Of a stretch of 64,000 nucleotides of DNA, positions 2,300-13,947 are shown in pieces. Position 1 is the stretch's first letter. Every line of letters begins with the position of its first letter. The notes under the pieces were generated by a model. That model was not told the DNA's origin and did not search any database. It saw only the letters and a list, made by a program, of their open reading frames with translations. The position numbers and the translations under genes are program-made. The stretch lies in contig NZ_CP073751.1 in assembly GCF_020025155.1 (NCBI RefSeq), positions 124,001 through 188,000 on the forward strand, given 5' to 3'. The stretch comes from Halopseudomonas nanhaiensis (GTDB lineage Bacteria > Pseudomonadota > Gammaproteobacteria > Pseudomonadales > Pseudomonadaceae).

Positions 2300-3550
<1,251 letters not shown>

Positions 3551-4155: not shown

Positions 4156-4614
4156 ATGAAAGCGCAGACGTTCCAGTACCTGACCGAATGGACGGCCCAA
4201 TTCCACACCAATCTCGCCGATGCGATGGAGAAAGGCCGGCCACAGCAGACCGACGAACGCGCCAAATGGGTGCTGGAATACCTCATCGACCACGAGCGTA
4301 CGCTCGCCAAAGAGGTCGAAGGCTTCAAGGATCAGGCCGACCCCAAGGCCCTGGAAACCTGGCTGTACGAGCATCTTACCGAGACGCTGCCGCCGGACGC
4401 GCGCACCCGTGACATCGACTTCGGGACCATGGATTTCACTGCCATCTCCAACGAAGTCTTCGACGTCCACAATCAGGTGATCGAAGTATGGGAGAGCATG
4501 GTCAGCAAGGGCGCCGTGCCTGAGGCCAAGGAGCTGGCGCAGAAGATCCACGATCTGGAAAAAAACGAAACGCTGCGGCTGGCCGACCAGATAACCAGCG
4601 TCCAGCAGATGTAG
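4156..4614 (+). CDS. Conserved hypothetical protein, predicted helical bundle with spaced His/Glu residues
   Basis: A 152-residue soluble protein I cannot assign to a named function. It is almost entirely predicted helix, with His residues at roughly regular intervals (QFHTNL, LIDHERTL, LYEHLTE, DVHNQVIEV). A ferritin-like or hemerythrin-like fold is possible, but no textbook di-iron motif is complete. A strong AAGGAG site precedes the ATG by 6 bases. It lies between yjbQ and the guanidine-riboswitch operon on the same strand, separated from the latter by 400 bases that hold a new promoter. It is probably not part of that operon. Confidence 0.7.
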   Translation: MKAQTFQYLTEWTAQFHTNLADAMEKGRPQQTDERAKWVLEYLIDHERTLAKEVEGFKDQADPKALETWLYEHLTETLPPDARTRDIDFGTMDFTAISNEVFDVHNQVIEVWESMVSKGAVPEAKELAQKIHDLEKNETLRLADQITSVQQM

Positions 4615-4776
4615 GTCTCCCTCCTCCCGGCCGGCCGGCGTGATGCACCGCGCCAGCCCAGCCCGCCCCCTTTTCGGGCGCTATCGCTGCCCTGATCGCC
4701 TGCCAAGTCTCCCTGTCAGATCGCCTGCTACTCGCCAGGGCCCGTCGCAGACGGGTTTGGGCGTGTATACGGGAAG

Positions 4777-4793
4777 TTGGCATCAACCATGCA
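4777..4793 (+). promoter_or_regulatory. Putative sigma-54 promoter of the riboswitch operon
   Basis: TTGGCATCAACCATGCA carries GG (4779-4780) and GC (4791-4792) exactly 12 bases apart. It matches YTGGCACGrNNNTTGCW except at two positions. Transcription would start near 4803, about 58 bases before the aptamer. Together with the half-site TGCACC at 4644 it suggests NtrC-type nitrogen control, which remains an inference. Confidence 0.55.
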
Positions 4794-4860
4794 AAACCTA
4801 TGATGAAGCGGGATGAGTCACCAGCAAGCATGACGCATCACACAAATCGGAGTGGTACTT

Positions 4861-4965
4861 AGGCGAACTAGGGTTCCGGTCTGCAGGACGCAGATGCTGG
4901 TCCGAGAGTTTTCCGGCTTCCATGGATCAGGAGGCTACACGGCGGGATAAAAGCCCGGGAGACCG
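4861..4965 (+). promoter_or_regulatory. Guanidine-I riboswitch aptamer (ykkC/yxkD motif, subtype 1)
   Basis: The conserved blocks of the ykkC RNA occur in order. They are CTAGGGTTCCG (4868-4878), a short stem-loop with GGACG in its loop region (about 4879-4895), GCTGGTCCGAGAG (about 4896-4908), a variable arm, ACACGGCGGGATAAAAGCCC (4937-4956) and the closing GGGAGA. These blocks are diagnostic. Subtype 1 binds free guanidinium, whereas subtype 2 variants bind ppGpp, PRPP or ADP-type ligands and lack the ACG-containing loop. The loop seen here favours subtype 1. The downstream NitT/TauT ABC importer is a known partner of guanidine-I riboswitches. Confidence 0.88.
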
Positions 4966-4993
4966 TCATGACGACGCGATCCCGTGCTTTTTT
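4956..4993 (+). terminator. Intrinsic terminator forming the riboswitch expression platform
   Basis: CGGGA (4956-4960), part of the aptamer's conserved 3' block, can pair with TCCCG (4980-4984). The short inner dyad GTCATGAC sits between them and a run of six T bases follows (4988-4993). Aptamer folding and terminator formation compete for 4956-4960. Ligand binding should therefore prevent termination, giving an ON switch as known for ykkC RNAs. Confidence 0.75.
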
Positions 4994-5017
4994 CTCACTG
5001 TGTAGGAGTTGCACATC

Positions 5018-6025
5018 ATGACCGTCTCTATGCTGCGTTGCTTTCGCAAGACCCTGCTCGGCGTCGGCCTGGCGAGCGTATCTTTCGTTGCGCCCATGGC
5101 CGCACAAGGGGCCGAGACCCTGAAGATCGGCACTGTGGTCTGGGCCGGCTACGGTCCGTTCTACGTGGCTGATGAGCTCGATCTGTACGACGAATTCGGG
5201 CTCGACGTCGATCTGCAATTTTTCAATGATCCGGCACTCATCCCCTCCGCCATGGCCAGTCGCGCGGTGGACGGCGGCATGTTGACCTATGACCAGGTCG
5301 TCGGCTCGGTGGCCAAGGGGCTCAAGCATCAGGTCGTCATGCCCATCGACTTCTCCAATGGCGGCGATGCCATCGTGGCCGACAAGTCGATCACCTCGAT
5401 CGCCGATTTCAAGGGCAAGGCGGTTGGCTACAACCCCCTGTCTCCTTCTGACTTTCTGCTGGCTTACGCGTTGCAGAGCAACGGCATGAGCGAAAAGGAT
5501 ATCCGCCCGGTGAACATGACCCCTGAAGGCATTCCGGGCGCCATGGCCTCCGGCAGCCTGCCGGTCGGGGTGACCTACGAGCCGAATGTGTCGCAGATTC
5601 TCGGCATGGGCAAAGGTGACAAATACCACGTGGTGTACTCCTCGAAGGACGCCCCTGGCCTGATCACCGACGTGCTGGTGTTCGACCAGAGCGTGATCGA
5701 GAAGCGCCCCGAGGCCATCACTGCAATGATCAAGGGCTACCAGGCCGGGCTGGATTACATGCAAGCCAACCCCGAAGAGTCCGCGAAGATCATCGGCAAG
5801 GTGCTCGGCGTCACCGCTGAAGAAGCCGTCGAGCAGATGGAGGGCGCCTACAATCTGCCCCTGGACGAGATGGCCAAGAGTTTCGAGAAATCGGAAGACA
5901 CCACCTCGTTCTTCGGCAGCGGTGCGGTAATTGCCGACATTCTGGTGAAGAACCAGCAGATCCAGGCGGCTCCTGATTTTGCCGAGACCTTTGATGCCAG
6001 CTTCGTTGAAGCCCTGACCGAATAA
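5018..6025 (+). CDS. ABC transporter substrate-binding protein, NitT/TauT-like, guanidine-riboswitch linked
   Basis: A 335-residue secreted solute-binding protein. Residues 1 to about 32 form a signal peptide (basic MLRCFRK, hydrophobic core, cleavage near AAQGAE). The mature part begins TLKIGTVVWAGYGPFYVADE, typical of NMT1/TauA-type binding proteins. The ATG at 5018 is chosen because AGGAG lies 9 bases upstream; an in-frame TTG at 5009 overlaps that site. It is the first gene of the riboswitch operon, while its permease and ATPase are the last two. By context the ligand may be a guanidine derivative, but no residue seen here proves it. Confidence 0.88.
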   Translation: MTVSMLRCFRKTLLGVGLASVSFVAPMAAQGAETLKIGTVVWAGYGPFYVADELDLYDEFGLDVDLQFFNDPALIPSAMASRAVDGGMLTYDQVVGSVAKGLKHQVVMPIDFSNGGDAIVADKSITSIADFKGKAVGYNPLSPSDFLLAYALQSNGMSEKDIRPVNMTPEGIPGAMASGSLPVGVTYEPNVSQILGMGKGDKYHVVYSSKDAPGLITDVLVFDQSVIEKRPEAITAMIKGYQAGLDYMQANPEESAKIIGKVLGVTAEEAVEQMEGAYNLPLDEMAKSFEKSEDTTSFFGSGAVIADILVKNQQIQAAPDFAETFDASFVEALTE

Positions 6026-6084
6026 CCACAGGTATCGCGGATGCTGCCGTGGGCGCATCCGCTGCATCGCCATCCGGAGGAGCC

Positions 6085-7137
6085 ATGACCACGTCCGCAT
6101 CCACAGGCAGGCCCGCTGCCAAGCGCAAGCCGCTGTTCCGTTATACCGACGGTCCGCTGCCCAATATCCTGGCCATGACCTACAGTCTGGCCGGCTACGT
6201 CGTCGGCATCGGCCTATTGCTCGCCGATTCCTGGCTGCTCAAGGCAGGCGGGACGCTACTGCTCGCGCACGCGATGATCATCGGTGCCTATCTGATGCAC
6301 GAGTTCGCCCATGGCACCATTTTCAGTTCACCGCAGCACAACGCTCGCGCCGGTGCGGTATACAGCTGGATGACCGGCGGCTGCTACGCCGAATTCCAGG
6401 ACCTGCGCCGAAAGCACATGCGTCACCACGTGGACCGGGCCGATGTACTGACCTTCGACAGCAAGCAGTTCATCAACGGCCTGCCTGTCGGGGTGCGTAA
6501 GCTCATCCTGGCGCTGGAGTGGGCCTACATTCCCGCCGTCGAATTACTGCTGCATGGCTACGTCATCCTGCTGCCGTTCCTCAGCGACAGCGAGAAGCAG
6601 CGTGCCCGCCGTCCTGCCGTGGCCACCATCCTGGTGATCCGTATCGCCGCGTTCGCCCTGCTCGGCTGGTTGTCTCCCGCGGCGCTGGTGCTCTACGCGG
6701 TGGCCTGGCTGATCATGATCACCGTGCTGCGCTTCACCGACGCCTACCAGCACACCTATGACGCCTTCGCCGTGCTGGAGGAAGGCGACATCCCGGCCGA
6801 CAAGCTGCGCGACCGCGCCTACGAGCAGCAGAACACCTTCAGCAATCTGGTTTCCCTGCGCTGGCCTGCACTCAATCTGCTGCTGCTCAACTTTTCCTAC
6901 CACAACGCCCACCATGAAAAGCCGGTCGCGCCGTGGTATCGCCTGCCCGCCTTGCATGCATCGTTCTACAGCGATGGTTACCGGCAGGTGGTGCCAATGA
7001 GAGAACTGGTCAGCAGTTTCCATCGGCACCGGCTACGTCGGGTCACCGATGACGACTACGGGCAGTTCGGTGACGGGCCGAAGCGTGCAGACAACTTCTA
7101 TGGCGCGGTCGGCGTCTCGTTCCTGACGGCGGTGTGA
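6085..7137 (+). CDS. Membrane fatty-acid-desaturase-family di-iron enzyme
   Basis: A 350-residue integral membrane protein of the FA_desaturase superfamily. The three histidine boxes are HEFAH (72-76), HMRHH (111-115) and HNAHH (273-277), with a further His in DAYQHTYD. Several hydrophobic segments surround them. This set is the di-iron site of membrane desaturases, hydroxylases and ketolases, which use O2 to oxidise C-H bonds. The ATG at 6085 has GGAGG close upstream; an in-frame GTG at 6049 is an alternative. In a guanidine-controlled operon the substrate need not be a fatty acid. Hydroxylation of an N-alkyl group is one possibility and is pure inference. Confidence 0.85.
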   Translation: MTTSASTGRPAAKRKPLFRYTDGPLPNILAMTYSLAGYVVGIGLLLADSWLLKAGGTLLLAHAMIIGAYLMHEFAHGTIFSSPQHNARAGAVYSWMTGGCYAEFQDLRRKHMRHHVDRADVLTFDSKQFINGLPVGVRKLILALEWAYIPAVELLLHGYVILLPFLSDSEKQRARRPAVATILVIRIAAFALLGWLSPAALVLYAVAWLIMITVLRFTDAYQHTYDAFAVLEEGDIPADKLRDRAYEQQNTFSNLVSLRWPALNLLLLNFSYHNAHHEKPVAPWYRLPALHASFYSDGYRQVVPMRELVSSFHRHRLRRVTDDDYGQFGDGPKRADNFYGAVGVSFLTAV

Positions 7138-7138
7138 T

Positions 7139-7921
7139 ATGCGAGACGTCGATTACAGCGGCCGTACTGTACTGATCAGCGGAGCCGGTAGCGGCATCGG
7201 CCGCGGGCTGGCTCGCGCGTTCGCCGAGCAGGGCGCGCGGCTGGAGCTGATTGATCGTGACGCTGAAGGCCTCGCCAGAGTGGTAGACGAGCTCGGCGCG
7301 CGCTGCGTGCGCGGCAGCTGTGTCGATCTTGGCGATGATGCGGCGGTCTCCGCGTTTGCCGACGTGCTGCGCGAGCGTTGTGGGCGGCTCGACGTGCTGG
7401 TGAACAATGCCGGCATCGAGCTGCCGACGCCGCTGCTCGACGCTGCAGCCGACGCTAATTCGCGCTGGCAGGCTCAACTGGACAACAACGTGGTCAGCAT
7501 GCTGCGACTGACGCGGGCTGTCCTCCCGTTGCTCGGTGAAGGCAGCAGCGTGATCAACCAGTCCTCGATCTGGGGGCTGAGTGCGGTTGCCGGCTTTTCG
7601 GCCTATGTGGCGAGCAAGCACGCGGTGATCGGTCTGACCCGCTCGCTGGCCTGGGAGCTGGGCCCGCAGCGGGTACGGGTAAATGCGGTCTGCCCGGGCT
7701 GGATCGCCACGGACGCGGCCATGGCGTCCCTGCGCAGCATGGCCGCTGTCAGCGGACGCAGCGAAGCCGCCGAACTGCAACACATTCTGTCTGCCCAGGC
7801 TATCCCCGAACTATTGACGCCAGCAGACCTGGCCGGAACCTTCCTGTTTCTCGGAAGCCCGCTCGCAGCGGCCATGACCGGCCAGGCGCTGGTCGTCAGT
7901 CGCGGGGAGATGATGCATTGA
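7139..7921 (+). CDS. Short-chain dehydrogenase/reductase (SDR), first of two
   Basis: A 260-residue classical SDR. The nucleotide-binding GAGSGIG is at residues 15-21, and NNAG is at 89-92. A catalytic Ser lies around 142-143, with Tyr156 and Lys160 in YVASK. Asp39 at the end of the second strand (LELIDRD) suggests NAD(H) rather than NADP(H). It starts one base after the desaturase stop and ends overlapping the next gene, so translation is likely coupled. It probably oxidises an alcohol formed by an upstream enzyme, which is inferred from context only. Confidence 0.88.
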   Translation: MRDVDYSGRTVLISGAGSGIGRGLARAFAEQGARLELIDRDAEGLARVVDELGARCVRGSCVDLGDDAAVSAFADVLRERCGRLDVLVNNAGIELPTPLLDAAADANSRWQAQLDNNVVSMLRLTRAVLPLLGEGSSVINQSSIWGLSAVAGFSAYVASKHAVIGLTRSLAWELGPQRVRVNAVCPGWIATDAAMASLRSMAAVSGRSEAAELQHILSAQAIPELLTPADLAGTFLFLGSPLAAAMTGQALVVSRGEMMH

Positions 7922-8679
7922 GTATGCCGTCCAGCCTTGCAGATCAGTGCATTCTGGTGACAGGCGCCGCGACCGGTATCGGCCGTGCGTGCGTCGAGGC
8001 ACTGGCCGGACGTGGCGCCCGGGTCTGGGCAGGGTATCAGACAGGCCAGGAACACCTCATGGATGAGCTGATCCGCTCGGTTGCAGCGCAGGGCGGCATC
8101 GTCCGGGGCCTGGAAGTGGACGTCGCCGACGCGGCTTCAGTGAAGGCGATGTTCGCCCGCATGGAAAAGGACGGTCCTTTGCATGGTCTGGTCAACAATG
8201 CGGGCGTCATTCTTGAAAAGCCCTTCCTGCAAACGGGAGAGGAGGACTGGCAGAGGGTGATGTCGGTCGATCTGGACGGCGTCTATCGCTGCTGCCGCCT
8301 GGCCCTGCACGGTATGTCCGCACGTGGTGGCGGGAGCATCGTCAACGTCGCCTCAGACCTGGGCTTTCTCGGCCGCGAGGATTACGTCGCCTATTGTGCG
8401 GCCAAGGCTGGCGTGATCGGTCTGACCCGCGCTCTGGCACGCGAGTTTGCGCCGCTGATCCGCATAAATGGGGTTGCTCCCGGGCCGATCGAAACGGCGA
8501 TGGTCTCGCCAGCTCACATGAGCGCCGAATGGATGGCTCGGGAAGTTGCGATTCCGGCGGCGCGCCTCGGTCAGCCGGCGGAAGTGGCCGCTGCGGTGTG
8601 CTTTCTCCTGTCGAGCGAAGCGAGCTTCTTTACCGGACAGATACTCGGGCCCAACGGCGGCTCCTGGATGGGTGGCTGA
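7918..8679 (+). CDS. Short-chain dehydrogenase/reductase (SDR), second of two
   Basis: A 253-residue FabG-like SDR. It has TGAATGIG (15-22), NNAG, the catalytic Tyr and Lys in YCAAK, and a conserved C-terminal FFTGQILGPNGG. I prefer the TTG at 7918 because GGGGAG (7904-7909) lies 8 bases upstream; the ATG at 7924 is 14 bases away. The TTG shares bases with the previous stop. The two adjacent SDRs are divergent in sequence, so they are unlikely to be a recent duplication. They may act on successive intermediates. Confidence 0.87.
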   Translation: MSMPSSLADQCILVTGAATGIGRACVEALAGRGARVWAGYQTGQEHLMDELIRSVAAQGGIVRGLEVDVADAASVKAMFARMEKDGPLHGLVNNAGVILEKPFLQTGEEDWQRVMSVDLDGVYRCCRLALHGMSARGGGSIVNVASDLGFLGREDYVAYCAAKAGVIGLTRALAREFAPLIRINGVAPGPIETAMVSPAHMSAEWMAREVAIPAARLGQPAEVAAAVCFLLSSEASFFTGQILGPNGGSWMGG

Positions 8680-9557
8680 TGCTGCGGCCTGAGCTCGTTC
8701 TGATATTCGCGACGCTCCTCTGGGGTACCAGCTGGATCCCCCTGCGGGCCTTCGCCGAAGCCGGTATTAGCGGCATGCCCATGGTATTTGCCAGTTACGG
8801 ACTGATCGCGCTGGTGGCGGTGCCGCTTCTCTGGTGGCAACGCCGGGCGTGGCGGGGTCAAGCGTGGGGATTGCTTGCAATCGTGGTCTTCGGCGGGTGG
8901 GCCAACACGGCGCTGATCGGGTCGCTGTCATTGGGGCATGACATTGTCCGGCTCATGCTGCTGTTCTACCTGGCGCCGGTGTGGGCCGTGCTCGGCGGCT
9001 GGCTGCTGCTGCGCGAGCAGCTCACGGCGTTGCGTCTCGGTGCGCTTGCATTGGCGTTGCTCGGCATTGCGCTCACGCTGGGAATCGGCCTGGATACCCT
9101 CAAGCCGCTGCAAGGTATCGATTGGCTGGCCCTGAGCGCAGGCTTCGCCTTCGCCATGAACAACCTGGCTACCCGTGCCGCCCACCGCATTCCGCTGTTC
9201 AGCAAGACCTTCGCCGCCTTCATAGGCAGTGTCGTCTTTGCCGGTGTCGCCTGCCTGATCCTGGACCAGGGCCTGCCCACACTGCGCCCGGTAACCTGGG
9301 TACTGGTTGCCCTGTTCTCCGTTGGCTGGCTGCTCGCAACATTGGCAGCGCAGTACGGCGTCACGCATCTGGAAGCCAGCCGCGCAGCAGTAATCATCGT
9401 TTTCGAGTTGATCGCGGCTGTGCTGTCTGCAGCCTGGCTGGGCGACGTACCGCTCGGGCCGCGCGAAAGTCTCGGTGCCGGTCTGGTGTGCGTGGCCGCC
9501 GTACTGGCCGCCTGGCCAGACCAGCCCCAACCTGCCCTGCCGAGGAGTGCAATCTGA
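8679..9557 (+). CDS. EamA/DMT-family transporter
   Basis: A 292-residue membrane protein with about ten hydrophobic segments in two EamA repeats. The first begins MLRPELVLIFATLLWGTSWI and the second starts around GIDWLALSAGFAFAMNNLATR. The family exports or imports small metabolites. The start overlaps the preceding stop (TGATG). In guanidine-riboswitch regulons small drug/metabolite exporters of the related SMR family remove guanidinium, so an efflux role for a toxic product is plausible. Direction and substrate are not visible in the sequence. Confidence 0.85.
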   Translation: MLRPELVLIFATLLWGTSWIPLRAFAEAGISGMPMVFASYGLIALVAVPLLWWQRRAWRGQAWGLLAIVVFGGWANTALIGSLSLGHDIVRLMLLFYLAPVWAVLGGWLLLREQLTALRLGALALALLGIALTLGIGLDTLKPLQGIDWLALSAGFAFAMNNLATRAAHRIPLFSKTFAAFIGSVVFAGVACLILDQGLPTLRPVTWVLVALFSVGWLLATLAAQYGVTHLEASRAAVIIVFELIAAVLSAAWLGDVPLGPRESLGAGLVCVAAVLAAWPDQPQPALPRSAI

Positions 9558-10327
9558 TGACAAGCGTATTCATGGACCAGATCAGCTGGGTGGAATATCA
9601 GCAACGCGTCAATGACAGCGCAGTGGTGTTTCTGCCCTGCGGCGCCACCGAGCAGCACGGGCCGCACCTGCCGCTTGGCACCGATGCGCTGCTGTCCACT
9701 GCCATCGCTGCAGATGCTGCGCGGCAGGTCGGCGGCATCGTCGCTCCGGCCCTGGCCTACGGCTACAAGTCGCAGCCCAAGTGCGGCGGTGGGCAACACT
9801 TCTGCGGCACCACCAGTCTGGATGGCGCGACGCTGATCGCACTGGTTCAGGATGCGGTGCGCGAGTTCGCCCGCCACGGCGTCAGGCGGCTGGTACTGGT
9901 GCTTGGTCACTACGAGAATCAGTGGTTCGTGGCCGAGGGAATCCAGCTGGCGCTGCGCGAGCTGGGCCAGGGCTGTGCGCTGGAAGTCATGCGTCTGGAA
10001 CACTGGGATTACTGCAGCGAGCAGACACTGGCCGACGTGTTCCCGGACGGTTTCCCCGGCTTCTCGCTGGAGCATGCAGCGGTGATCGAGACCTCGCTGA
10101 TGCTGCATTACCACCCCGCTCTGGTTCGTCTGGACCTGATTCCGGATGATGGCCCGGCGGACTTTCCCCTGTACGACATGTATCCATCGCGTACCGAGTG
10201 GGTGCCACCGTCCGGCGTGCTCTCCTCGGCGCGCGGCTCCGATGCGGCAAAGGGCGCGCGGATGGCCGACGATATCGTCAGCGGCATCGTCGCCGCGGTG
10301 CGGCATGAATTCCGGCTGGAGGCTTGA
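9557..10327 (+). CDS. Creatininase (creatinine amidohydrolase) family protein
   Basis: A 256-residue protein very close to biochemically known Pseudomonas creatininase. It has Glu32, His34 and Asp43 (ATEQHGPHLPLGTD), His118 and Glu120 (GHYEN), and Glu172-His173 (LEHAA), which match the di-metal ligands. The segments YGYKSQPK-GGG and GTTSLDGATL are also present. The GHYEN form is typical of true creatininases rather than the wider family (GHGGN). Creatininase opens the cyclic guanidine creatinine to creatine. No creatine amidinohydrolase follows, so the substrate may be another cyclic guanidine or lactam. Start and stop overlap the neighbouring genes. Confidence 0.88.
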   Translation: MTSVFMDQISWVEYQQRVNDSAVVFLPCGATEQHGPHLPLGTDALLSTAIAADAARQVGGIVAPALAYGYKSQPKCGGGQHFCGTTSLDGATLIALVQDAVREFARHGVRRLVLVLGHYENQWFVAEGIQLALRELGQGCALEVMRLEHWDYCSEQTLADVFPDGFPGFSLEHAAVIETSLMLHYHPALVRLDLIPDDGPADFPLYDMYPSRTEWVPPSGVLSSARGSDAAKGARMADDIVSGIVAAVRHEFRLEA

Positions 10328-10330
10328 AGC

Positions 10331-11113
10331 ATGAGCCAGGTCCTCAAGCTGTGGCCGCTACTCACCGCCACCCACCGCTATGACAAGTCCTATTCCACCC
10401 GCAATCGGGGCGAAGGGACGCTGATCGAGGCACCCATCCTCGCCTACCTGATCGAAACGCGGCAGGGCCGGGTGCTGTTCGACGTCGGTTGCGACTTCCA
10501 CAAACTGGACGATCCGGTTGCCCGGCAGCGCTGGTTCGACCCGGTGGACTTCCCCATGGGGCCACCGGAGATGAGCGAAGAGCAGCGGCTGACTGCGCAC
10601 TTGCAGCGTATGGGGCTGACTTGCGCCGATATCGATCTGGTGTTTCTCAGCCACCTGCATTTCGACCACGCAGGCGGGCTGTGCGAAGTGTGCGGTGCCG
10701 ACGTGCATGTCCATGAAGCCGAACTTGAGGCCGCGCGGGAGCCTGCGGACAACGCGTATTTCGCCGACGACTTCGCCGGCGATGTGCGCTGGAAGCTCCA
10801 GCGCGACGAGTACGACCTGTTGCCGGGGGTGCGCGCAATTAACACGCCGGGTCATACGGCCGGGCACATGTCCCTGTTGATCGAGCTGCCGACGGGCGCG
10901 CCGGTGATTCTCGCCGGCGACGCGGCCGATCTCACGGAGAACCTGGCTGACGAGGTTGCGCCTGGGCTGTGCTGGCGTGATCGGGATGATCTGGCAGTGG
11001 ACAGCATTCGCAAGCTCAAGCGGGTGGCAGTAGAGACCGGCGCCGAGCTCTGGCCCAACCATGACATGGCCTTCTGGCGGACCCTCAAACGCTTCCCGGA
11101 GTACCACGCATGA
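10331..11113 (+). CDS. Metallo-beta-lactamase-fold hydrolase, AHL-lactonase-like
   Basis: A 260-residue MBL-fold enzyme with a complete di-zinc site: His108, His110, Asp112 and His113 (SHLHFDHAGG), His175 (PGHTAGH), Asp197 (AGDAADL) and His244 (WPNHDMAF). The layout resembles AttM/AiiA N-acyl-homoserine lactonases, which are cytosolic and open lactone rings. In this operon it more likely hydrolyses an ester, lactone or lactam intermediate than a quorum signal, because no luxI/luxR pair is present. It starts 3 bases after the creatininase stop. Confidence 0.85.
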   Translation: MSQVLKLWPLLTATHRYDKSYSTRNRGEGTLIEAPILAYLIETRQGRVLFDVGCDFHKLDDPVARQRWFDPVDFPMGPPEMSEEQRLTAHLQRMGLTCADIDLVFLSHLHFDHAGGLCEVCGADVHVHEAELEAAREPADNAYFADDFAGDVRWKLQRDEYDLLPGVRAINTPGHTAGHMSLLIELPTGAPVILAGDAADLTENLADEVAPGLCWRDRDDLAVDSIRKLKRVAVETGAELWPNHDMAFWRTLKRFPEYHA

Positions 11114-11877
11114 ATGTACCCGAACCCTATCTGGGTGTATGGCAGCGCACGCTGCTGCGGACCGCGAACGGTTTCGAAGACCGTACCACGCGGGTGTTCT
11201 GGCTGCAGACCGAATCGCTGCATGCGGATATTCGCATCCCGGAGCCCCGTCCACGCTCACTGGAACAGCGCTGCCTGCAGGCCGGGTTCGCCGGGGTCAC
11301 CCGCGTCGAGGGAGATCTGTGCCGCTGGCATCGAGTGATAGATTTCCATCCGGCAAGCCCGCCCGATGTCGGCCGGATGACCTTCGTCGGGCCTGACGAA
11401 CTCCATGAAAGAGCCCTCGATGGCAGCTACCTGGAAGTATGGAAGCGATTGCCCGGTTCGCAGGGAGAAAGCCAGGCGCAATGGCTGACCGACGCTGACA
11501 CCGGGGTCCGCAGTGCCTGCCTGTTACGCGCCGGGACGTTCTTCCTGTTCGTGGCCAGCCGTCCGGAACCGCTGCGCGAGGATGCCTCGCTGGTCAGGCA
11601 GCTCACCACCGCCTCCGCCGAGCAGGCAGAGCGGATGCTGGACATGGAGCTGTCTTTCGGCCGGATCGACTCGACCGGCCATGCATGGCGCATCGAGCTC
11701 TCGACGCTGCCTTGTCGCCTGGGCAAGGCGTTGCTGCTCAATCCGGAGCCGACCGCACCGCTGACGACGTGGCCCGCGACGCGACTCGCCAAGCTGGGTG
11801 CCCATGCGCCGGCAGGTGGATGGCTCAGAGTGGCGAATCCGGTATGTCGTCCCGTTCCCGAGGAGGACTTCGCATGA
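11110..11877 (+). CDS. Conserved protein of unknown function in the guanidine operon
   Basis: A 255-residue protein I do not recognise with confidence. Its conserved-looking segments are Trp-rich: VFWLQTESLHADIRIP (about residues 29-44), LCRWHRVIDFHP and YLEVWKR. The alternation suggests a beta-barrel, perhaps a lipocalin-like fold. There is no signal peptide or membrane segment. Its start ATG overlaps the previous stop and its stop overlaps the permease start, so it is firmly embedded in the operon. A small-molecule-binding or accessory role is conceivable. Confidence 0.8.
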   Translation: MNVPEPYLGVWQRTLLRTANGFEDRTTRVFWLQTESLHADIRIPEPRPRSLEQRCLQAGFAGVTRVEGDLCRWHRVIDFHPASPPDVGRMTFVGPDELHERALDGSYLEVWKRLPGSQGESQAQWLTDADTGVRSACLLRAGTFFLFVASRPEPLREDASLVRQLTTASAEQAERMLDMELSFGRIDSTGHAWRIELSTLPCRLGKALLLNPEPTAPLTTWPATRLAKLGAHAPAGGWLRVANPVCRPVPEEDFA

Positions 11878-12716
11878 ACGCACAGGCACCGCTGCCGGTC
11901 TCCGGCGCCCCGACCACGCCCGTTCGGCGCCGCAGTCGCTGGTGGACCATTCGTGGGGACATGGGTGGTCGCAGCGCCGCCATCCTGGCCACGATCGGCC
12001 TCTGCTCACCCTTCATCGCCTGGTGGTTGTACACCGCGCTGGGCCTCGCCGATCCGCTGTTCATGCCAAGCCCGGAAGCGGTGGCCCAGCGGGTCTGGCG
12101 CTGGTGGACCGATGAAGGCCTGCTGGCCGACATCGGCATCAGCGTCTACCGGGTCATGGCCGGCTTTCTGCTCTCGGCGCTGTTCGCGCTGCCACTGGGC
12201 CTGTATCTGGGCACCTACCGCACGGTGCAGGCGACGCTTGAGCCGCTGATCGACTTCATCCGCTACATGCCCGCGGTTGCGTTCATCCCGCTGGTCATGC
12301 TGTGGGTCGGCATCGACGAGGGCTCGAAGATACTGATCATCTTCATCGGCACCTTCTTCCAGATGACGCTGATGGCGGCGGAGGACGTGCGCCGGGTGCC
12401 GATGGCGCAGATCGAGGCGGCGCAGACCATGGGCGCCTCACGCGGGGAAATCATTCGCCTGGTGATCCTGCCATCCGCGCGGCCGGCCCTGCTCGATACC
12501 CTGCGCATCACCTGCGGCTGGGCCTGGACCTATCTGGTCGTGGCCGAGCTGGTGGCGTCCAACTCCGGTCTGGGTTACGCCATCCTGCGCGCCCAGCGCT
12601 ACATGCATACCGACAAGATCTTCGCCGGCATTCTGTTGATCGGCCTGATCGGGCTGCTCACCGACCAGGCGTTCCGCTGGATCGGGCGCCGCGCCTTCCA
12701 CTGGCAGAAGAGGTGA
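11874..12716 (+). CDS. ABC transporter permease, NitT/TauT-like
   Basis: A 280-residue inner-membrane permease with about six hydrophobic segments. The binding-protein-dependent transport motif is EAAQTMGASRGEIIRLVILP (about residues 183-202), which docks the ATPase. The N-terminal 30 residues are basic and cytosolic. The ATG overlaps the previous stop and the ATPase gene follows 4 bases after its own stop. It pairs with the binding protein at 5018 and the ATPase at 12721. Confidence 0.9.
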   Translation: MNAQAPLPVSGAPTTPVRRRSRWWTIRGDMGGRSAAILATIGLCSPFIAWWLYTALGLADPLFMPSPEAVAQRVWRWWTDEGLLADIGISVYRVMAGFLLSALFALPLGLYLGTYRTVQATLEPLIDFIRYMPAVAFIPLVMLWVGIDEGSKILIIFIGTFFQMTLMAAEDVRRVPMAQIEAAQTMGASRGEIIRLVILPSARPALLDTLRITCGWAWTYLVVAELVASNSGLGYAILRAQRYMHTDKIFAGILLIGLIGLLTDQAFRWIGRRAFHWQKR

Positions 12717-12720
12717 GACC

Positions 12721-13563
12721 ATGGACAAACCCTGTATCGGCATCCGCCAGCTCGGCAAGCAGTTCGTCACCCGCAGCCAGACCATCGAAGCGCTGCGCAA
12801 CATCGATCTGGACATACGACCGAACGAGTTCGTGACCTTTGTCGGCGCCTCCGGTTGCGGCAAGTCCACCCTGCTGCGCATCCTCGCCGGGCTCGAGACG
12901 CACAACAGCGGCGATCTGTTGCTGCACGACCAGCCGATCGACGGCCCCGGTGTCGATCGCGCAATGGTCTTCCAGCATTACAGTTTGTATCCGTGGCTGA
13001 CGGTGATGCAGAACATCAAATTCTGCCGTCAGTTACGCGCGATCTCCGATACCGTATACAGCCAGTCCGACGTGGAAACGGCGAGCGGGCGGGCCGACGC
13101 GCTGCTCAGCCTGATGGGCCTTGCGCCGTTTGCCGATGCCTATCCCAGCCAGCTGTCGGGCGGCATGCAGCAGCGCGTGGCGATCGCACGCGCGTTGATG
13201 CCGCGCCCGGACATCCTGCTGATGGATGAACCGTTCGGCGCGCTGGATGCGCAGACCCGCGAGGTGATGCACGATCTGATTCGCCACGTGCACCGGCTGG
13301 AAAAGACCACCATCGTGTTCGTCACCCACGATGTGGAGGAGGCAATCTACCTGGGCAGCCGTATCGTGCTGATGGCGCCGCGGCCCGGTCGCATCGATAC
13401 CATCTATGAAGTACCGCTGCCTGAGGCGCGCCATCAGGACATGAAGCTGGAACCGTCCTTCATCCACCTGAAGCGGCAGATCCTGGCGCGCATTCGCGAA
13501 ACGTCAGGCGTACAAACGGACCTGGACCAGCTGGCCCGACTCACGCAGGGGGCATCTGTCTGA
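12721..13563 (+). CDS. ABC transporter ATP-binding protein, NitT/TauT-like
   Basis: A 280-residue ABC ATPase with Walker A GASGCGKST (42-50), Q-loop Gln85 in VFQHYSLYPW, signature LSGGMQQR (145-152), Walker B ILLMDE (165-170) and H-loop FVTHD. It resembles the SsuB/TauB/NrtD group that energises import of nitrate, sulfonate, taurine and related ligands. The residues after about 240 form a short extension without an obvious regulatory domain. It ends the operon; I see no strong terminator in the 87 bases before sutA. Confidence 0.93.
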   Translation: MDKPCIGIRQLGKQFVTRSQTIEALRNIDLDIRPNEFVTFVGASGCGKSTLLRILAGLETHNSGDLLLHDQPIDGPGVDRAMVFQHYSLYPWLTVMQNIKFCRQLRAISDTVYSQSDVETASGRADALLSLMGLAPFADAYPSQLSGGMQQRVAIARALMPRPDILLMDEPFGALDAQTREVMHDLIRHVHRLEKTTIVFVTHDVEEAIYLGSRIVLMAPRPGRIDTIYEVPLPEARHQDMKLEPSFIHLKRQILARIRETSGVQTDLDQLARLTQGASV

Positions 13564-13650
13564 ACCATGAAAAATAATCTTCGTGCCCTCTAGCCAAAAA
13601 GTTTCGTTGCGCTATAAATAGCCTGTTTTTCCCGCTGCGAGAGTCAGGTG

Positions 13651-13947
13651 ATGAGCGACGACGATATTGAAGACGAAGAGCTGGAGAGTGTGGACGACAA
13701 TGACGTCGACGATCTGCCAGAGGTAGAGGACGACGAACCGGCTCCCAAGCCGAAGAAAAAGGCTGCAGTCGTCGAGGATCCGCTTGAGGGCCTGTCGCTC
13801 GAAGCCAAGGCGCGTGAGCGCGAAATGCTGGCGCGGCAGATCGAGGAGTTCATGGCGCGCGGCGGCAAGGTGCAGGAAATTGACGACAACGTGGTAGGCG
13901 ATCCGCCGAAGAAGCCGGACAGCAAGTACGGTAGCCGTCCGATCTGA
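13651..13947 (+). CDS. sutA: Transcriptional regulator SutA
   Basis: A 98-residue protein with a strongly acidic N-terminus (DDDIEDEELESVDDNDVDDL), a Lys-rich linker, a predicted helix (AKAREREMLARQIEEFMARG) and the invariant tail PPKKPDSKYGSRPI. This matches SutA of P. aeruginosa, an intrinsically disordered RNA-polymerase-binding protein that raises expression of housekeeping genes in slow-growing cells. The ATG at 13651 is chosen; a GTG lies immediately upstream. It is probably transcribed from its own promoter in the AT-rich stretch 13565-13640 (GCTATAAATAG). Confidence 0.92.
   Translation: MSDDDIEDEELESVDDNDVDDLPEVEDDEPAPKPKKKAAVVEDPLEGLSLEAKAREREMLARQIEEFMARGGKVQEIDDNVVGDPPKKPDSKYGSRPI

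Follow-up and report, generated by a model that had tools for sequence, protein, structure and literature searches.

A guanidine-riboswitch operon of Halopseudomonas nanhaiensis that combines a membrane di-iron oxygenase with an MgdL-type protein

Guanidine riboswitches are widespread, and few sources of free guanidine are known. A close described precedent is the MgdH/MgdL operon of Vreelandella boliviensis, in which a guanidine riboswitch controls the methylguanidine hydroxylase MgdH, a 2-oxoglutarate/iron-dependent oxygenase that also accepts N,N-dimethylguanidine, together with MgdL, published in 2025 as an N-(hydroxymethyl)guanidine lyase (PMC12508155). The guanidine carboxylase operon (gca, CgdAB, atzF), associated with Guanidine-I and Guanidine-II riboswitches, degrades free guanidine, and guanidine riboswitches also control exporters (PMC12186494). 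A third system, the guanylurea hydrolase cluster of plasmid pMET-2 (PMC9800807; CP098607.1), is preceded by a LysR gene; its stretch gives no Guanidine-I match, and no oxygenase or lyase is annotated there. Here we analyze a 64,000-nucleotide window (the whole stretch of DNA under study: positions 124,001 to 188,000 of contig NZ_CP073751.1, forward strand, assembly GCF_020025155.1) from Halopseudomonas nanhaiensis, in which a Guanidine-I riboswitch precedes a ten-gene operon. This operon shares with that of V. boliviensis its guanidine-riboswitch control, the presence of an oxygenase and an MgdL-type protein, and a carboxylase pathway in the genome. Its oxygenase, however, is a membrane di-iron protein unrelated to MgdH; it has its own importer and additional short-chain dehydrogenase (SDR), creatininase-like and metallo-beta-lactamase-fold (MBL) enzymes, and it lies apart from the carboxylase operon. 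It is best read as a riboswitch-controlled guanidine assimilation system with a non-homologous oxygenase and extra modules, and not as a wholly new kind of system. A literature search found no paper describing the gene set, which does not in itself show that none is in print.

An earlier note, made from the letters of this DNA, had described a ykkC aptamer with a terminator followed by ten packed genes. Both this arrangement and the gene families that it named, which agree with Pfam and NCBIfam, were borne out:

4777–4804, + strand: predicted sigma-70-like promoter, TTGGCA-16-TATGAT (consensus scan, 10/12)
4857–4963, + strand: Guanidine-I riboswitch aptamer, RF00442 (cmscan, 83.5 bits)
4949–4993, + strand: intrinsic terminator hairpin, sharing the aptamer's last bases (RNA fold)
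5018–6025, + strand: SBP, periplasmic binding protein of the NMT1/SsuA type (Pfam NMT1, 90 bits)
6085–7137, + strand: membrane di-iron oxygenase, FA_desaturase family (PF00487, 114.2 bits)
7139–7921, + strand: SDR1, short-chain dehydrogenase (adh_short_C2)
7918–8679, + strand: SDR2, short-chain dehydrogenase (adh_short_C2)
8679–9557, + strand: EamA (DMT) transporter, possible exporter (PF00892)
9557–10327, + strand: creatininase-family hydrolase, substrate probably not creatinine (TIGR04448, 371 bits)
10331–11113, + strand: MBL, metallo-beta-lactamase-fold hydrolase, lactonase-like (PF00753)
11110–11877, + strand: protein 8, MgdL-type, proposed hydroxyalkylguanidine (hemiaminal) lyase (profile comparison)
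11874–12716, + strand: PERM, permease of an ATP-binding cassette (ABC) transporter (BPD_transp_1)
12721–13563, + strand: ATP, ABC ATPase (ABC_tran)

The ten open reading frames 3' of the aptamer occupy one strand up to 13563, with spacings or overlaps of a few bases and a larger gap between genes 1 and 2. Judging from a GGAG-type site in front of each, these two genes probably start later than listed, at ATG 5018 rather than TTG 5009 (SBP) and at ATG 6085 rather than GTG 6049 (oxygenase). The aptamer exceeds the gathering score of 63 (E 2.1e-13) and is the sole Rfam match in the window at or above its gathering threshold; the single promoter match compares with a mean of 0.1 in shuffled sequences. 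The 3' part of the aptamer also folds into a strong hairpin that runs into TTTTTT (4937–5002, −33.3 kcal/mol, z −6.0, equaled by 0/200 shuffles) and, because this hairpin overlaps the aptamer's last bases, forms an expression platform competing with the aptamer. A simple terminator scan with a loop limit of 8 bases returned 0 sites there, so the terminator call rests on the RNA fold. We propose, on the model of this fold, that the hairpin at 4949–4993 serves as an ON switch for guanidine; free guanidine is the likely inducer of the operon. In V. boliviensis, the Guanidine-I RNA recognizes guanidine but does not bind methylguanidine (PMC12508155), and induction by a methylguanidine-fed pathway would accordingly need the product.

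Protein 8 had been listed as unknown, and it matched nothing in Pfam or NCBIfam at E 0.01 or below. Profile comparison nevertheless places it with the gene flanked by mgdH-like and atzF genes (E 1.6e-33 and 1.1e-40; probability 100% and 99.9%); the gene is present as first described, but it is an MgdL-type homologue and would supply the guanidine-releasing step that the earlier reading lacked. The reference gene, which is MgdL by gene order, sits 3' of a Guanidine-II riboswitch in the order gca-mgdH-mgdL-atzF, as in the published operon (PMC12508155). Thirteen positions of the protein 8 family are identical in 26/26 members. MgdL-type proteins share their fold, at 12% identity, with yeast YLR301w (PDB 3rby), which we take to be Hri1. 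Outside the present operon type, a 2-oxoglutarate (2OG) oxygenase gene lies directly upstream of the MgdL-type gene in 10/10 loci examined, of 18 found with a profile scored on at most six candidates per genome. In the window, the MgdL-type gene shares its operon with the FA_desaturase-type oxygenase gene, to which it is not adjacent. On this homology, the protein encoded at 11110–11877 is proposed to be a lyase for a hydroxyalkylguanidine hemiaminal.

Two of the loci that carry MgdL-type genes merit separate mention. In a Pseudomonadaceae genome (locus L138, G413:C14:460000-476000), three Guanidine-I aptamers and one Guanidine-II aptamer lie within 9 kb (4204–12856), adjoining a 2OG oxygenase gene and an MgdL-type gene. 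In L135, the 2OG oxygenase upstream of the MgdL-type gene is split into two overlapping frames (6557–7611).

The oxygenase is clearly above the PF00487 gathering score of 29.7. Residues H72, H76, H111, H114, H115, H273, H276 and H277, which we take to be the expected di-iron site of the FA_desaturase family, are invariant in 92/92 oxygenase sequences, some of which share one genome. The alignment A5 holds 28 sequences, L090 and L109 having been omitted because the coordinates chosen contained a stop codon. A PDB sequence search with the oxygenase gave no match up to E 1, and no homologue of MgdH (2OG-Fe(II) oxygenase) was found in the operon or elsewhere in the window genome. We propose the enzyme to be an alkylguanidine hydroxylase.

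More distant oxygenase homologues occur in other settings. One of 34% identity in Gloeothece verrucosa (L029, NC_014533.1, 634945–636048) adjoins ectoine synthase, GNAT and tryptophan halogenase genes, perhaps a biosynthetic cluster; we rejected this plasmid copy as a guanidine locus, since its neighbors are ectoine synthase and halogenase and not guanidine genes. In two distant loci (L106, 11007–11873; L109, 11047–11892), a gene that by eye resembles TIM-barrel sugar isomerases lies near the oxygenase gene; the L106 protein has no NCBIfam match.

We searched for protein 8 in 58 genomes (the window's own, 36 of the same genus and 21 of the order) and found some match in 22. Strong matches (49–73% identity) occur in 12/36 same-genus genomes, where the surrounding operon is syntenic (L016–L027) and is preceded by the riboswitch in 11/12 loci, the remaining one (L018) being cut by a contig end. 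A scan with the desaturase-like protein yielded 106 relatives, of which 80 were kept and underlie all counts out of 80 below; they include Halopseudomonas, Stutzerimonas, Pseudomonas, Tepidiphilus, Plasticicumulans, Paraburkholderia, Thiomonas, Aquabacterium and Methylotenera, as well as the autotrophs Thiobacillus and Acidithiobacillus. Some of the 80 share genomes with L016–L027 (for example L100 with L017), so the sequences are not independent. The earlier note had suggested checking whether the gene set recurs with ykkC RNAs, and it does: in 64/80 relatives the first gene has a Guanidine-I aptamer on its strand no more than 600 bases upstream. These aptamers were found with a model, R1, for which eight aptamers were used, seven belonging to this operon type, and Rfam's own model concurs with it in the 7/7 operon loci given to it. 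For module counts we dropped 13 of the 80 loci, those with less than 5 kb downstream, and counted a gene anywhere in the stretch of the remaining 67 (SDRs at 45% identity or more). Protein 8 is present in 59/67. Most relatives also carry an eleventh gene, for a cysteine hydrolase labeled IHL here, in 11/12 same-genus loci and 55/67 of the wider set, outside the operon in three of these (L081, L096 and L103). In Pseudomonadaceae, the IHL gene has the creatininase-like gene on one side and MBL or protein 8 on the other. The oxygenase is retained in distant loci, usually together with MBL and often with protein 8 or EamA. On these module counts, the oxygenase and a hydrolase make up the core, in most cases joined by the lyase-type protein; the SDRs and the creatininase-like gene are an addition to it.

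According to the earlier note, none of the known guanidine-degrading enzymes is present; this is true of the operon, but not genome-wide. Around G000:C1:700,000-707,000, ABC, CgdAB-like and carboxylase genes stand behind a second Guanidine-I and a Guanidine-II riboswitch; at 608602–610341 there is a homologue (46%) of allophanate hydrolase. The NCBIfam label of this carboxylase is urea carboxylase; we take it to be a guanidine carboxylase because of the two riboswitches and the CgdAB-like genes. The window operon thus shares a riboswitch class with the carboxylase operon that stands elsewhere in its genome, but the latter degrades free guanidine, which the former is proposed to make. In 30/80 loci, a carboxylase homologue is found in the sequence around the oxygenase gene, which covered at most 10 kb in each direction; in Stutzerimonas it lies upstream on the same strand, about 3–5 kb before the binding-protein gene. 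Guanidine is therefore not the end of the pathway. Across 390 genomes of the order, CgdA occurs in 19/26 with a strong desaturase-like match (E <1e-60) against 96/364 others (Fisher p 2.4e-6, a guide only, since the genomes are related), and in 13/13 of the best-scoring ones. In these counts, 5/120 genomes with only weak matches were omitted, and the thresholds that define "strong" and "best 13" were chosen once the lists had been viewed.

From the aptamer, the operon, its recurrence, the homology to MgdL and the co-occurrence with the carboxylase, we infer the reactions, the substrate and the order of steps as follows. The ABC transporter would import a small substituted guanidine, and the oxygenase (6085–7137) would hydroxylate the carbon attached to a guanidino nitrogen to give a fairly stable hemiaminal, the chemistry of MgdH carried out by an unrelated enzyme. 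The MgdL-type protein (11110–11877) would then split the hemiaminal into guanidine and an aldehyde, while MBL, or the guanylurea-hydrolase-like enzyme in relatives, would hydrolyze acylguanidine side or end products, and the SDRs with the creatininase-like hydrolase would form an optional branch of oxidation followed by hydrolysis. Free guanidine would block formation of the terminator, so that the first molecules released switch the operon on, and would pass to the pathway of carboxylase, CgdAB and allophanate hydrolase, whose genes lie at other sites of the genome. We lean toward this account of a guanidine-induced feeder operon that releases free guanidine as a nitrogen source; it is the simplest account, and it covers the riboswitch and the oxygenase as well as protein 8 and the link to CgdA. 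The guanylurea-hydrolase-like gene added in relatives, and a permease and ATPase nearer to those of pMET-2 than to those of the genome's own carboxylase locus, also speak for it. Of what had first been suggested, a guanidine-riboswitch operon that imports a substituted guanidine and oxidizes it with O2, with free guanidine as the likely inducer, is still the best reading. Methylguanidine is the leading, though doubtful, candidate substrate, placed first because MgdH provides an assayed precedent. If the account is true, two unrelated oxygenases are paired with one kind of hemiaminal lyase, and proteins with the fold of yeast YLR301w have a wider role. The operon offers a testable bacterial source of guanidine in Pseudomonas, Stutzerimonas, Halopseudomonas, Thiobacillus and others, and may shed light on the use that environmental bacteria make of substituted guanidines present in urine and drugs.

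Several observations weigh against the feeder account. Foldseek lends the oxygenase fold modest support: two chains of plastid FtsHi motor complexes rank first (E 2.9e-4 and 1.2e-3), and AlkB (8f6t) follows at E 0.08. The operon encodes no electron-transfer partner for it. Among 36 other genomes with the desaturase operon (out of the 80) that were tested for MgdH, 3/36 also carry a homologue of 55–58%, and 20 more have only weaker matches, the best at no more than 41%; the two oxygenases are thus not strictly exclusive, and we rejected strict replacement of MgdH by the new enzyme. The aptamer is missing upstream on the operon's strand in 16/80 loci, of which three begin less than 130 bases from a contig end (L056, L084, L089) and three have an aptamer on the opposite strand beside the oxygenase gene (L106, L108, L110). 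CgdA is absent from 7/26 strong desaturase-like genomes. The lyase reference was identified from gene order, the published MgdL deposit being A0A265DXW6. The MgdL-type gene is absent in 8/67 loci, whereas MBL and IHL are jointly absent in 1/67 (L086), so that release of guanidine could instead be an MBL or IHL step; a simple either-or relation of MBL and IHL was not significant (Fisher p 0.27). Finally, the SDRs, the creatininase-like enzyme and MBL exceed the needs of simple demethylation and are left unexplained by the feeder account alone. They may oxidize the hydroxyalkyl compound to an acylguanidine and then hydrolyze it.

These surplus enzymes are given a central place if one linear pathway opens the ring of a cyclic acylguanidine, for example creatinine: the oxygenase would hydroxylate the ring carbon, an SDR would form the ketone, the creatininase-like enzyme would open the ring, MBL or the guanylurea-hydrolase-like enzyme would cut the acylguanidine, and the lyase would only finish removal of the methyl group. 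We consider this unlikely. In its favor, the SDRs never occur without the creatininase-like gene (0/67 loci), which is itself accompanied by SDR2 in 48/52, SDR1 in 46/52 and the IHL gene in 49/52 loci. The Paraburkholderia loci L081 and L096 carry the creatininase-like gene with only an SDR of 42–44% on the opposite strand. The creatininase-like protein's 371 bits on TIGR04448 (cut-off 235) lie near the 380 of a Pseudomonas putida creatininase fragment, so this model cannot tell the window family from that creatininase (PDB 1j2t, 1v7z), and the two also share metal ligands: E32, H34, D43, H118 and E120, which we take to be those of creatininase, are kept in 65–66/66 members. However, Trp174 and Asp175 of chain 1j2t, presumably substrate-pocket residues, are replaced in 66/66 by Phe and Ala (Ser in the window), and the hydrolase probably does not act on creatinine. 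The creatininase-like gene is moreover absent in 15/67 loci that keep the oxygenase, and a sixteenth, L098 (the third locus without a close SDR), was counted as having it only for a 32% homologue elsewhere. A search for the Creatinase_N domain, whose positive control matched in 13/14 genomes, gave nothing in the window genome, which takes out the classical creatine route; creatinine breakdown by creatininase and then creatinase was rejected on this ground. MBL keeps the HxHxDH zinc motif and further metal ligands in 68/68 sequences but falls below the equivalog cut-offs for 4-pyridoxolactonase (133.5 of 325 bits) and AiiA (132.4 of 375 bits) and below those of all 25 NCBIfam families among the matches listed. 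It is a probable amide or lactone hydrolase, and a quorum-quenching lactonase was rejected on these scores. The first proposal, that the creatininase homologue and MBL open a ring or ester, is therefore unsupported as it was put. In L104, a class I glutamine amidotransferase-like gene (5525–6214) lies between MBL and EamA.

Equally unlikely, in our view, is a guanylurea or biguanide operon, whose importer and hydrolase would take in and split guanylurea-type compounds after the oxygenase had stripped alkyl groups. The prevalence of IHL in the wider loci speaks for it, as does IHL's nearest plasmid relative, a pMET-2 cysteine hydrolase beside a nucleoside deaminase (63.5% over 95%; two near-identical plasmids tie). 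From its plasmid, family and neighbor, we equate this protein with BB_00025, whose apparent kcat for guanylurea hydrolysis is 4.4 per second (PMC9800807). PERM and ATP are 59% and 58% identical to the adjoining pMET-2 transporter, against 31% and 40% to that of the genome's own carboxylase locus. SBP, however, is only 33% identical to the pMET-2 binding protein. IHL reaches 255.5 bits on the NCBIfam biuret hydrolase model, below the cut-off of 370; among solved structures it is nearest to 6azo, a putative amidase (243 bits), and to 6xjm, a biuret hydrolase (237 bits). IHL also gave no match in the window genome, in a search run without a positive control, or in the locus of that genome's nearest relative (L016), while all else is kept. 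Uptake of sulfonate or taurine was also rejected: SBP lies below the taurine and sulfonate cut-offs, with 112 bits on SsuA_fam and 89 bits on ABC_peri_uca, both below cut-off.

It is quite improbable that the modules together oxidize a creatinine-type cyclic N-alkylguanidine all the way to guanidine, running without creatinase or deaminase. In such a route the oxygenase would hydroxylate the ring carbon, the SDRs would give the dione, a re-purposed creatininase would open it, MBL or a guanylurea-hydrolase-type enzyme would remove the acyl group, and the oxygenase and the MgdL-type protein would strip the methyl group to leave guanidine, which is also the inducer. Very improbable is detoxification rather than nutrition, with guanidine signaling toxic alkylguanidines that are then oxidized and exported by EamA: EamA is present in 48/67 loci and such riboswitches do control exporters, but the operon carries a dedicated ABC importer, the carboxylase assimilation pathway co-occurs with it, and the core is carried by Acidithiobacillus and Thiobacillus, both autotrophs, which fits a nitrogen role.

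In the window, the operon is flanked by an ammonium-transporter-like gene (2300–3550) and by a gene for a small acidic protein resembling SutA (13648–13947), both named by eye. Homologues of the flanking genes border the operon in several same-genus loci.

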